Assembly (NCBI RefSeq): GCF_014191425.1
Contig: NZ_JACHWP010000001.1
Location: 744,001 to 808,000, forward strand
Origin: Helcobacillus massiliensis
GTDB taxonomy: Bacteria > Actinomycetota > Actinomycetes > Actinomycetales > Dermabacteraceae
Direction of reading: 5' to 3'
Length of the DNA: 64,000 bases
The stretch's first letter is position 1, and the number at the start of each line of letters is the position of its first letter. Position numbers and translations under genes: made by a program. A model generated the notes under the pieces. That model was not told the DNA's origin. It ran no database searches and worked only from the letters and a program-made list of their open reading frames with translations. Below are positions 18,129 to 62,547 of the stretch, piece by piece.

Positions 18129-18793
18129 GTGGACAGCGTATCGACCCGGTCCCGGCGGTGGCGGATGCGCCACCATACGAAAAAGCCGACCAGGGTGAAC
18201 GCCCCGTAGAACACGTACATGAACGCGCTGGCGAAGTAGCCGGCGGACCACAGCAGGGGCACGCCGACCACGTCGACCGCCACCCAGATCAGCCAGAACT
18301 CGACCCATCCCTTCGCCATCCCGTAGGTGGCGAGCAGGGAGCCCATGAAGATGTAGGCGTCCGCCCACACGGGCTCGTAGGAGCCGAGCGCACGGAAGAC
18401 GGGGGTGAGCACGGCGACGCCGGCGGCCCAGGTGAGGACCAGGGCGAGGCGGGTGCGCCAGGAGGCCCAATCGGGGGCGACCGCTTCACCGTGCGCGATC
18501 TTGGTGGCGCGCCACTGGCTCCACCCGTAGATCGCGGCGATGAGGAACATCGCCTGCCGGCACGCCTGCCCGAGCAGATTGACGGGGTTCGGGGAGCCGA
18601 ACACGGCGCCGAGGAACACGGTCAGCAGCAGCATGTTGCCGGCGATGCCGACGGGCCACGCCCACACCCGTCGGCGCATGCCGGCGAACGCGGACAGCAG
18701 CCCGAAGGCGTTGCCGATGACTTCGCGGAACAGGATGAACTGTCCGCCGGGGAAGGTGATCTGGGCGTCGAAGAGCCAGCGCAGAAGATCCAT
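18125..18793 (-). CDS. pnuC: Nicotinamide riboside transporter PnuC
   Basis: PnuC imports nicotinamide riboside for NAD salvage by facilitated diffusion. The 222-residue membrane protein has about seven helices and family patterns such as [33 protein letters not shown] near the start, then [24 protein letters not shown] and [20 protein letters not shown] chose the ATG at 18793 because homology begins at [11 protein letters not shown]. No riboswitch-like leader is visible because the start overlaps the tail of rpe. It is coupled to hisE by a GTGA overlap, an unusual pairing of vitamin uptake and histidine genes. Confidence 0.9.
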
Positions 18794-22111: not shown

Positions 22112-24052
22112 TCAGAAGATGTGCGGCGGGTCCACCTGGACCCGCAGCTGACCGGGCAGCTTCTTCGCACTGCGGACCATCAGCGCCGCCCGGACCGCTT
22201 CCACGAGCTGCTGGGCGCCGGGCGCGGCGATCCGCAGCACCGCGCGCGTCACGGGCTTCTCCCCGTCCCACACATCGTCCAGGGGGCCGAGGACACCCGC
22301 CATCCCCGGCAGCTCCAGCACGTCGAGGAATCCGGCGACAGCGGCCTTGTCACCGCGCGCCTCCACCACCTTCGACAGCGGCGGGAACAGCAGTTCGGCG
22401 CGCTGCTCGAGCACGGTGTCGATGAACGCGCGGCCTCGCGGCACCACGAGCGACCGGATCGCGGGGGCATGAGCGGTGCCGACCACGAGGACCTGGCCGC
22501 CGTCGGAGAAGGGCCTGGTGGCGGCGATCGCATGGGACCAGCGGCGCACCGCCTCCACATCAGCGTCGAACGCGGCGCGGGCGAGGGTGCCGTCGGCGTC
22601 CAGGACTGCGCAGGCGGCGTACCCACCCGCTGGGAGCGGCTCCGCGCCCGGGGTGGCGACCACCACGCAGGGCCCGTCCACGTCCTCGTCCGGCACGATG
22701 CCGCCGGCGCCGCCGGAGACGTGGAACTCGACATCGCCGAAGGCGCGCTTGAGGTCATCGGCGGTGCGGGCACTGCCGGAGACCACCGGCCGCACCTGCG
22801 TGCGGTCGCATTCGGCGCAGCGGAACGCCCCGTGGGTGAGTCCGCAGACGGGGCACACGAGCGCCAGTCCCCTCCCCCGCACCACAAGGGCGGCGTGGCA
22901 GGCGGTACAGGTGGCGCGAGTCCCGCAGAACGTGCACACCAGCGCCGGAACGTACCCGGAGCGCGGCACCTGCACGAGCACCGGGCCGCGGGTCAGCCCC
23001 TCCCGGATGAGGCGGTAGGCGCGCTGCGGCAGGCGGGAATACCCGGAGGCTCCTTCCCGCTCCCGCAGGTGCTCATCCATCAGTTCGATCCGCGGGTGCG
23101 TGAGGGCGTGCGGCGCAGGCGCCGGCTCGAGCTCCACCAGGACGCCGTCCCGGGCCCACTGGGTGAGCTGCACGGACCGCGACGGGGTCAGGAACAGCAC
23201 GGGGACCCGCTCGATGTGGGAGCGGGCGAGCACCACTGTTCGGGCGTGGGGGTACGGTGCGCGCGGCTCCTCGAACAGGTCGTCGGCTTCGTCCCACATG
23301 AGGATCAGGCCGAGGTTCGCGACGGGAGCGAACGCGGCACTGCGGGTGCCGACGACGACGCGGTGCTCACCGCTGAGGATGCGCAGGAACGTCCGGTAGC
23401 GCTTCTCCGGTCCTTCGCTGCTGGTGAGCTGCGCACATGAGATCCCGTCGCCCTGCAGGGCGGCGCTGACGCGAGCCGCGTCGCGGGCGTCGGGGGCGAG
23501 GATGAGGGCGCCCTGGTCGTCGTCGAGGGAATGGACGGCTTCGACGGCGGCGTCCAGCCAGCTCTCGGCGGGGTCGAGGGTGATGGCGGCGCGGGGCGAT
23601 CCGCCCTCACGGGCGTGGGAATAGAACGCGGCGAGTCCGCGGTAGCGGGCGGTGAGGAAGCCGACGGGTTCAGCGGCGTCGTCCGCGTCCGCTGATTCGG
23701 CGCGGCGCGCGAGGAATTCTTCGCGGTCGGCATGGGCGCGCTTCTCCGCGCGGGCGTGTCGCGCCGGGACGGCCAGGCGCAGCACATCGGTCAGGCTGCC
23801 GGCGGTGCGTTCGGCGACCATCGCGCACACCCGGAAGGTGTCCTCACTGATGACGCGGTCGGTGGAGACGAGCTTCCTGATCGGAGCGAGCGGCCGGTCC
23901 GTGTCGGGAGCGGCGACGCGCTCTCGGACGAGTGCTTCGCTGTCGCGGCCGGCGAAGGCGACGCGGACGCGCTGCCCGGGGGCGAGCTCGTCCATGTCGG
24001 CGGGGATCGCGTACTCGAAGGCGCGGTCCAGATGCGGCAGGGCCCCCATCAC
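22112..24052 (-). CDS. priA: Probable primosomal protein N' (PriA), actinobacterial form without Walker A
   Basis: PriA restarts stalled replication forks. The coding part shown has 646 residues from the first GTG. The zinc-binding region is clear, with eight Cys (CTFCGTRATCTACH, CPVCGLTHGAFRCAEC). A DEAD-like WDEADDLFEE is present, but no GxxGxGKT Walker A occurs where PriA normally has it. This is known for actinobacterial PriA and implies loss of ATPase activity. Conserved N-terminal sequence (PVARVHV) continues upstream of 24052 into codons up to about 24178 with no ATG, GTG or TTG, so the true start is probably non-standard (see findings). It follows an FKBP gene and precedes fmt. Confidence 0.85.
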   Translation of the reverse strand: MMGALPHLDRAFEYAIPADMDELAPGQRVRVAFAGRDSEALVRERVAAPDTDRPLAPIRKLVSTDRVISEDTFRVCAMVAERTAGSLTDVLRLAVPARHARAEKRAHADREEFLARRAESADADDAAEPVGFLTARYRGLAAFYSHAREGGSPRAAITLDPAESWLDAAVEAVHSLDDDQGALILAPDARDAARVSAALQGDGISCAQLTSSEGPEKRYRTFLRILSGEHRVVVGTRSAAFAPVANLGLILMWDEADDLFEEPRAPYPHARTVVLARSHIERVPVLFLTPSRSVQLTQWARDGVLVELEPAPAPHALTHPRIELMDEHLREREGASGYSRLPQRAYRLIREGLTRGPVLVQVPRSGYVPALVCTFCGTRATCTACHAALVVRGRGLALVCPVCGLTHGAFRCAECDRTQVRPVVSGSARTADDLKRAFGDVEFHVSGGAGGIVPDEDVDGPCVVVATPGAEPLPAGGYAACAVLDADGTLARAAFDADVEAVRRWSHAIAATRPFSDGGQVLVVGTAHAPAIRSLVVPRGRAFIDTVLEQRAELLFPPLSKVVEARGDKAAVAGFLDVLELPGMAGVLGPLDDVWDGEKPVTRAVLRIAAPGAQQLVEAVRAALMVRSAKKLPGQLRVQVDPPHIF

Positions 24053-24174
24053 GTGGACGCGGGCGACCGGGTCGGTGTCGACGAGGTCGAAGCCGGCGGT
24101 GGTGCGCAGGCGCGCAGGAGCGGCCTCTCCCTCCGGCTGTGGGAAGAGGCCGCCCTGGGTGCTGCTGGGGTCGG

Positions 24175-24564
24175 TCAGTTGGACCGCACCCCGACGAGGT
24201 CGCAGACGAAGATGAGGGTCTCGCCGCCCTTGATGACGCCGGGGATGCCGCGCGGGCCGTAGGCGAGGTCCGCGGGGATCTCCAGGCGGCGCCGGCCGCC
24301 GACCTTCATGCCCTGGACGCCCTGGTCCCAGCCGGGGATGACCTGGCCGACGCCGAGCGGGAACGTCAGCGGTTCACCGCGGTCCCAGGAGGCGTCGAAC
24401 TGCTTGCCGTCGCTGAGGCCGACGCCGACGTAGTGGACGTCCACGACATCGCCCTTCTTCGCGACGTCGCCGTCGCCCTCCCACTCGTCGATGATCACGA
24501 GCTCGGTAGGCTCTTCGGTGCCGTCCACGGACACCTGCGGCTTGGTGGGGTTCTGCTGGTTCAT
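24175..24564 (-). CDS. FKBP-type peptidyl-prolyl cis-trans isomerase, cytoplasmic
   Basis: This 129-residue single-domain FKBP catalyses proline isomerisation. Family blocks are VDVHYVGVGLSDGKQFDASWDRGEPLTFPLGVGQVIPGWDQGVQGMKVGGRRRLEIPADLAYG and a C-terminal LIFVCDLVGV. The active-site Tyr, Asp, Val, Ile and Trp are in place. It has no signal peptide. I chose ATG 24564 because AAAGGAA lies 6 bases upstream. It follows the lipoprotein FKBP gene, so two FKBPs are made together; both lie downstream of pafA. Confidence 0.92.
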   Translation of the reverse strand: MNQQNPTKPQVSVDGTEEPTELVIIDEWEGDGDVAKKGDVVDVHYVGVGLSDGKQFDASWDRGEPLTFPLGVGQVIPGWDQGVQGMKVGGRRRLEIPADLAYGPRGIPGVIKGGETLIFVCDLVGVRSN

Positions 24565-24596
24565 GAGGGATTCCTTTCGGGTCGGGTGAACGGATC

Positions 24597-25550
24597 TCAT
24601 GCCTTGGCGACGTACAGGACGTCCGCCGCGAAGATGAGGGTCTTGCCGCCGAGTTCGTGCTGGGCGGGGTCATCGCCGTAGCCGTCCTTCGGCGGGATCA
24701 CGAGCAGGTACTGGCTGCCGGCGGCGGCGCCCTCCAGGCCGTTGTCCCAGCCGGGGATGACGCGGCCGGCGCCGAGGGGGAACACGAACGGCTCGCCCCG
24801 GTCCCAGGAGGAGTCGAACTTCTCGCCGGTCTCCCAGTCCCATCCGGTGTAGTGCATGACGAGGGTGTCCCCCTTGGCGGCCTTCTCCCCCGTGCCGACG
24901 ATCGTCGGTTCGGCGACGAGTTCGGTCGGGGCCTTCCCGGAGGGCTTGCCCTTCAGTTCGGGGGCGCCGTTGTCTCCGAGGGTGAACTCGGGCATACCGG
25001 AGGGGACGGGCTTCTGTGTGCCCTCGGCGCGCTTCAGGGCGATGCCCTCGAGGTCGCCGACCTGCAGGATCGGCTGCTGGCCCTGCCCGGACTGGTCGGC
25101 GGTGAAGCCGGCCTGGGCGAAGCGGGTGCCGACGGCCATGCCGGAGAAGAACTCCGCGGCGCTCTTGCCGATGGTCTTCTCAACGACGGGCAGTGCGGTC
25201 GCGCTCTTCTCCTTGAACTCCGAGAACAGTGTGTCGCCGGAGGCCGGGTCGATGAACACCGACCGGGTGATGATCGTGTCGCCCTGCTTGACGGCTGCAC
25301 CGTCGCCCTTGACGACCACCGTGTTCTCCTGCTCCTTGTACTCGAGCGGGGCGTCGAAGGTGACCTTCGGCTCCTTGCCGACGTTGTCGCTGATCGTGAG
25401 CTTGTCGAGGACAGCTCCGCCCTTCTCGGCGGGGGCGGAGGGGTTGGCCGACGGCTTCTGGGTCGTCGACTTGTCGCCACCGCAGGCGGCGAGGGTTCCT
25501 CCCGCCGCGGCGGCGGTGAGGGCGGTGACGAGGGTGCGTCGGCTGATCAC
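24597..25550 (-). CDS. FKBP-type peptidyl-prolyl isomerase lipoprotein
   Basis: This 317-residue protein begins with a lipoprotein signal peptide (MISRRTLVTALTAAAAGGTLAAC) with Cys 23 as the lipidated residue. A twin-arginine pair (SRRTLV) raises the possibility of Tat export. The C-terminal domain (about 200-317) is a full FKBP: GDTLVMHYTGWDWETGEKFDSSWDRGEPFVFPLGAGRVIPGWDNGL. The middle (about 45-190) looks like a diverged, non-catalytic FKBP-like domain. The GTG at 25550 overlaps the pafA stop (GTGA) and has AGGAGGAA upstream. It probably works outside the membrane on exported proteins. Confidence 0.9.
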   Translation of the reverse strand: MISRRTLVTALTAAAAGGTLAACGGDKSTTQKPSANPSAPAEKGGAVLDKLTISDNVGKEPKVTFDAPLEYKEQENTVVVKGDGAAVKQGDTIITRSVFIDPASGDTLFSEFKEKSATALPVVEKTIGKSAAEFFSGMAVGTRFAQAGFTADQSGQGQQPILQVGDLEGIALKRAEGTQKPVPSGMPEFTLGDNGAPELKGKPSGKAPTELVAEPTIVGTGEKAAKGDTLVMHYTGWDWETGEKFDSSWDRGEPFVFPLGAGRVIPGWDNGLEGAAAGSQYLLVIPPKDGYGDDPAQHELGGKTLIFAADVLYVAKA

Positions 25551-62457: not shown

Positions 62458-62547
62458 GAGCCCATCGCACACCCCAGACGGCCCCTGTGGCGCGAGGACC
62501 ACTACATTGTGGATAACCGGGAGGCGGCGGCCCACCCGCGGTGGCGT

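Follow-up and report, generated by a model that had tools for sequence, protein, structure and literature searches.

At which codon does translation of priA begin in Helcobacillus massiliensis? In the window, the 64,000-nucleotide stretch of DNA analysed here, the gene for the actinobacterial primosomal protein N' lies on the minus strand (22112..24178, 688 codons if started at a CTG). Its open frame follows a TGA at 24376, and the first ATG, GTG or TTG in it is the GTG at 24052 (24050..24052), which corresponds to residue 43 counted from the CTG and falls six residues inside the canonical PriA fold. The original prediction, that priA has no standard start codon before its conserved N-terminus, is confirmed, with PVARVHV lying upstream of this GTG; the open frame, first described as running back through 24178, reaches even farther upstream, to TGA 24376. 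Four CTG codons occur in it, at 24331, 24205, 24178 and 24109. As also predicted, the CTG at 24178 (24176..24178) overlaps the stop codon of the upstream gene, an FKBP-type peptidyl-prolyl isomerase (24175..24600, minus strand, PF00254): in the junction sequence the FKBP gene ends with TCC AAC TGA, and the CTG shares two bases with the TGA (24175..24177) to form CTGA (24178-24175). The FKBP gene itself may start at ATG 24564, preceded by AAAGGAA, and not at ATG 24600 (24561-24600 of the window, minus strand); the latter codon overlaps the stop of the preceding gene, and the apparent ATGA overlap there may be incidental.

The N-terminus of the priA product carries the 3'DNA-binding domain (PF17764, E 2.6e-14, above the gathering score), the sole Pfam domain reported for this PriA, with a match that begins only at residue 46. 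The NCBIfam PRK14873 models match it nearly end to end, with a best score of 502 bits against a cut-off of 980, which leaves it below the equivalog cut-off. As no curated NCBIfam cut-off is reached, the PriA name rests on fold and profile similarity. The AlphaFold2 model, generated from 64 aligned PriA sequences, has a mean pLDDT of 92.1, with values of 49-58 at residues 1-20 and 97 at residues 31-40, and order from about residue 21. Eight cysteines, which we take to be zinc-binding, are invariant among the 64 aligned sequences. Foldseek matches the model best to chains of E. coli PriA (E down to 4.2e-35), and VIA-align superposes it on E. coli PriA with Z of 24.9-26.8 over 546-607 residues, the P of PVARVHV (residue 37 from the CTG) aligning with E. 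coli PriA residue 2 (4nl4, 8fak_H). The overall fold is the same as that of E. coli PriA (PDB 4nl4, 8fak, 6dgd), including the eight cysteines invariant in the aligned set, but identity is about 20% and the actinobacterial protein has an additional N-terminal tail of about 36 residues.

The coding signal of this upstream region was scored with a codon-usage model of 464 kb of the same genome (the window and 20 further 20-kb stretches), in which 375 of 395 gene calls were usable. No other of these 375 genes has as much coding signal ahead of its first standard start as priA, which scores 16.9 over 42 codons; the runner-up scores 9.2 over 13 codons. The priA signal peaks at offset 0 from CTG 24178. 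In-frame NTGA junctions in the 464-kb sample comprise 45 with ATG, 35 with GTG, 25 with CTG and 3 with TTG, and in 24 of the 25 CTGA junctions a standard start follows within 81 bases downstream, priA being the exception. Among the other genes flagged by upstream coding signal, L090:13346 (FolD-like, by eye) has a good SD and an ATG and L094 (lipoprotein-like) has its own ATG; the remainder lie at 62509 and 46179 of the window and at 7524 of L099. A short, broken-looking frame at L105:18150-18450 (flag at 18275), near a gene fragment, shows coding signal without a start and is possibly a frameshifted gene. In the three Dermabacter pairs, the segment from the CTG to PVA shows the constraint of coding sequence, with dN/dS of 0.13-0.28 (0.13-0.17 for the body; synonymous sites near saturation), and it does so more weakly in seven pairs summed (pN/pS 0.64, chi-square p 0.0006). 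Tail dN/dS in Brachybacterium pairs ranges from 0.27 to 1.12, exceeding 0.8 in some.

A contig search with a single PriA protein as query returned no relative, and alignment A1 was used for the contig search, of which the best 80 of 574 matches were taken. Within the family, priA was found in 45 of 47 genomes, of which G027 and G031 lack the N-terminus on the contig and were dropped, leaving a readable junction in 43 rows (the window and 42 others). Two rows were set aside, L044 with a different junction and L032, in which an FKBP-like sequence ahead of priA (G014:C3:313100-316500) appears to run the other way, which may reflect an inverted copy or a faulty assembly; 41 of 43 rows are usable. 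In 31 of the 43, priA shares its frame with the CTG of CTGA; 8 have the junction in other frames and 2 have TAA as the stop. The conserved xxxLF motif (in the window QGGLF, residues 8-12, 24143..24157, minus strand) follows the start in all 41 usable rows, with Q first in 37. The 8 out-of-frame relatives, all Brachybacterium, have an ATG or GTG at +8 to +25, just past the FKBP stop and before the motif, and the 2 TAA rows have a TTG at +6. The original prediction called for comparing the start in relatives: they do not start at the equivalent of 24052, the 8 out-of-frame relatives all starting upstream of that place.

The 31 in-frame rows divide according to the standard codons that they carry. 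Seven have no ATG, GTG or TTG before the motif, in 4 a standard start follows the CTG but still precedes the motif, and the remaining 20 have only a GTG or ATG at -30, so that for 24 of the 31 the CTG is not forced. The seven belong to three genera (the window; L004, L005 and L007; L015, L036 and L043), and five of them (the window, L004, L005, L007 and L015) also have no standard start up to PVA. In L004 and L005 (Dermabacter), a GTG at -30 is followed immediately by an in-frame TGA, which leaves the CTG as the sole NTG codon before the motif. L036 gives weak support, since its priA frame is broken: at G028:C1:1806800-1810200 two matches lie in different frames, with one TGA. A PriA tree places the window together with the four rows of Dermabacter type (SH-aLRT 100). 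On it, being in frame requires three changes, and lacking any standard start requires four. Because all 8 out-of-frame relatives also have a C before the TGA, no excess conservation of the CTG, and no selection on the base itself, is detectable.

An SD-like GGGGTG (24187..24192, minus strand) lies within the 3' end of the FKBP gene, 8 bases before the CTG. Its predicted anti-SD pairing is -8.7 kcal/mol for CTG 24178 versus -3.5 for CTG 24205, and the means over the 31 in-frame rows are -8.3 kcal/mol at the CTG and -4.4 at the -30 site. The 8 out-of-frame rows have -4.4 kcal/mol at the equivalent place and show little pairing (-0.55) at the starts that they use themselves; SD strength alone therefore does not mark starts here. 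Against a null of synonymous codons, the site reaches 0.117 in the window, 0.04-0.07 in Dermabacter and 0.07-0.09 in the other CTG-only rows, with 0.21 in L003 and 0.921 in L024; the excess over synonymous chance is marginal and suggestive. By frame class, the site is present in 26 of 29 in-frame and 0 of 8 out-of-frame rows, an association that involves 1 to 3 independent changes on the tree and is too thin for a test because these changes are few. In the window the site is part of a predicted 10-bp hairpin around the CTG. A conserved RNA hairpin at the junction was rejected as evidence, with z of -0.53 and -0.63 and predicted structures that differ between clades.

Taken together, these comparisons make CTG 24178 very probably the start of priA. 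It is preferred because it is the only candidate that fits the coding signal, the SD-like site, the stops in L004 and L005 and the N-terminus of the relatives with ordinary starts, and the same four observations support the CTG start or re-initiation put forward in the original prediction. The closest competitor is the near-cognate CTG at 24205 (24203..24205, minus strand), at the -30 position, which would give a tail 9 residues longer that overlaps FKBP. Many Brachybacterium have a GTG at this place and one has an ATG, and in L024 and L033 anti-SD pairing is stronger at -30 than at the CTG. However, the adjacent codon is a stop in L004 and L005, the window itself has a CTG there with the weak pairing given above, and a GTG at -30 is no commoner where it is usable (24 of 31) than where it is not (7 of 8). 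Being equally common in frame and out of frame, this GTG is attributed to the Val-Cys codons of FKBP. A start at 24205 is accordingly unlikely, and the -30 GTG as a general start is rejected for the clade of the window, while in the 20 Brachybacterium-type rows carrying GTG or ATG it may still serve.

A start at GTG 24052 would have the advantage of being the first standard start codon, and the Pfam match begins at residue 46, so little of PF17764 would be lost; for that reason Pfam alone would miss the damage to the fold. The shorter PriA would nevertheless lack the first beta strand (residues 38-43, VARVHV, 24050..24067, minus strand) and the ordered stretch from about residue 21, and with them canonical PriA residues 2-7 and the xxxLF motif. 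The coding signal, moreover, continues 42 codons upstream of this GTG, and the out-of-frame relatives begin upstream of its equivalent. We consider this start even less probable than that at 24205. The remaining two explanations are both very improbable. One, anticipated in the original prediction, is that a base error or a species-specific mutation hides an ordinary start; the genome is indeed a draft of 28 contigs and the only one of its genus in the comparison, but 30 other genomes of the family have this CTG in frame as well, and 6 of those, from two other genera, also have no standard start before the motif (L036 being the weak case). The other is an FKBP-PriA fusion made by a -1 frameshift near the FKBP stop. 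priA does occupy the -1 frame, which stays open through the junction, yet no slippery heptamer is seen in the junction sequence and 8 relatives have separate ATG or GTG starts in other frames. The missing standard start is thus probably real, and easily misplaced by annotation.

For the preferred start at CTG 24178, we infer CTG use and a termination-reinitiation mechanism from the frame, the absence of standard starts, conservation and the coding signal. Ribosomes terminating on FKBP would stop at TGA 24177-24175 and remain on the message, then restart at the overlapping CTG with initiator tRNA, where the SD-like GGGGTG eight bases before it would hold them. This would yield the full-length PriA of 688 residues, with a mostly disordered tail that includes QGGLF, and the weak CTG codon would keep PriA low.

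A comparable junction was found in a second lineage. Among 39 loci from other families of the order, L059 and L063 likewise lack a standard start ahead of PVA. Searching their genus (g19 of f14) gave matches in 10 of 11 genomes, and 6 of the 10 loci (L059, L063, L107, L108, L109 and L112) have an in-frame CTG with no standard start in the 30 codons before it or the 12 after it. The gene upstream of priA is here metK, recognised by its C-terminus, and in 5 of the 6 loci the CTG and the metK stop overlap to form CTGA; the CTG of L063 comes 11 bases past that stop, with an in-frame TAG directly before it, and a TAG also directly precedes the CTG of L108. Standard codons occur far upstream in L107 and L112 and nearer PVA in L108, L109 and L112, which is why only L059 and L063 are strict cases in this genus. 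Ordinary priA starts are present as well, with a GTG in L058, a TTG in L062 and a GTG 16 codons upstream in L110 and L111. The pattern points to an independent adoption of CTG by priA in this lineage.

Counted strictly, with no ATG, GTG or TTG from the upstream stop to PVA, 9 of 167 rows qualify: the window, L004, L005, L007, L015 with its duplicate L117, L059, L063 and L179. Standard codons, either closer to PVA or a long way upstream, keep L036, L043, L107, L108, L109 and L112 out of this set. Rows L113-L121 were removed as duplicates, and L122 had no N-terminal match. L179 is a Gordonia priA in which 15 codons separate PVA from an in-frame stop; these contain no ATG, GTG or TTG, and no CTGA occurs there.

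The tail recovered by the CTG start hints at a possible link between PriA and the sliding clamp. Clamp-binding motifs have a consensus of the QL[SD]LF type, and QGGLF resembles such a pentapeptide; it sits conserved in the predicted disordered tail (residues 1-20), with L11 at least 90% conserved among the 64 PriA. The pattern Q..L[FL] occurs in 27 of the 32 family rows with a defined region (shuffle mean 0.4). In the N-terminal tails of 113 other rows, which retain a few near-duplicates (for example L124/L051, L190/L048 and L187/L055), Q..L[FL] is found in 38 (shuffle mean 1.1) and Q[LP].L. in 58 (shuffle mean 1.8). Across the order (L048-L086, L123-L192), one or other of the peptides Q-[LP]-x-L-x and Q-x-x-L-[FL] turns up repeatedly close to the N-terminal end of PriA. 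We propose that the tail peptide may bind DnaN. A PriA-clamp motif may already have been published, the literature on PriA and the clamp being covered in part (PMC13220808, PMC3290774). A wider and more tentative idea, which we regard as rather doubtful, is that in Actinomycetales an N-terminal clamp-binding peptide of PriA tethers restart to the clamp, and that a CTG start tied to an upstream stop was adopted independently in at least two lineages (behind FKBP in Dermabacteraceae and behind metK in another family), keeping a dose-sensitive PriA scarce.

With a conserved CTG start in a core gene, annotation pipelines that allow only ATG, GTG and TTG would shorten or extend PriA in several genera, and a misplaced start removes the first strand of the DNA-binding domain together with the conserved peptide. 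The priA junction would also provide a natural, conserved test of CTG tolerance in actinobacterial re-initiation, given that reporter selections found CTG to be poor (PMC4633059). CTG starts are known as a rare kind; our literature searches turned up no priA that starts at CTG, nor any account of such a start being conserved or recurring there.

How rare such starts are is illustrated by a count of 20 among nearly 85,000 annotated genes (PMC11983097). The same source describes the RepFIB rep gene, which starts at a CTG with a good SD, is usually annotated from a GTG 14 codons downstream, and loses replication when the CTG is changed to CTC. Like priA, it encodes a replication protein with a CTG start and a downstream GTG misannotation; it is, however, an E. 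coli plasmid gene, established by mutation and earlier N-terminal analysis, whereas priA is chromosomal, overlaps a stop and is argued from comparative evidence. Closer in lineage is the polyprenyl synthetase of M. smegmatis, for which N-terminomics reported a CTG start where a downstream GTG is annotated (PMC9597629). As for priA, the gene is actinobacterial and chromosomal, with a CTG followed by Ser and an annotated start at a downstream GTG, but its CTG was shown by N-terminal peptides and that of priA is supported by comparison. In a selection in the same species, CTG was not enriched as a leadered start (0.03%) and was ineffective when leaderless (PMC4633059); coupling to an upstream stop could reconcile the CTG start seen by N-terminomics with this poor performance. 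The junction as a whole resembles the NTGA (-4 nt) overlaps, the commonest close spacing of genes, which have been linked to termination-reinitiation (PMC12548453, PMC10666635, PMC6728339). In these, as at the FKBP-priA junction, stop and start share bases and the SD motif usually lies inside the upstream gene, and translation of the upstream gene feeds the downstream one (PMC6728339, PMC10666635, PMC12548453). One of these studies (PMC10666635) describes the -4 overlap as ATGA or GTGA and does not mention CTG in its main text, whereas the overlap at priA is CTGA.
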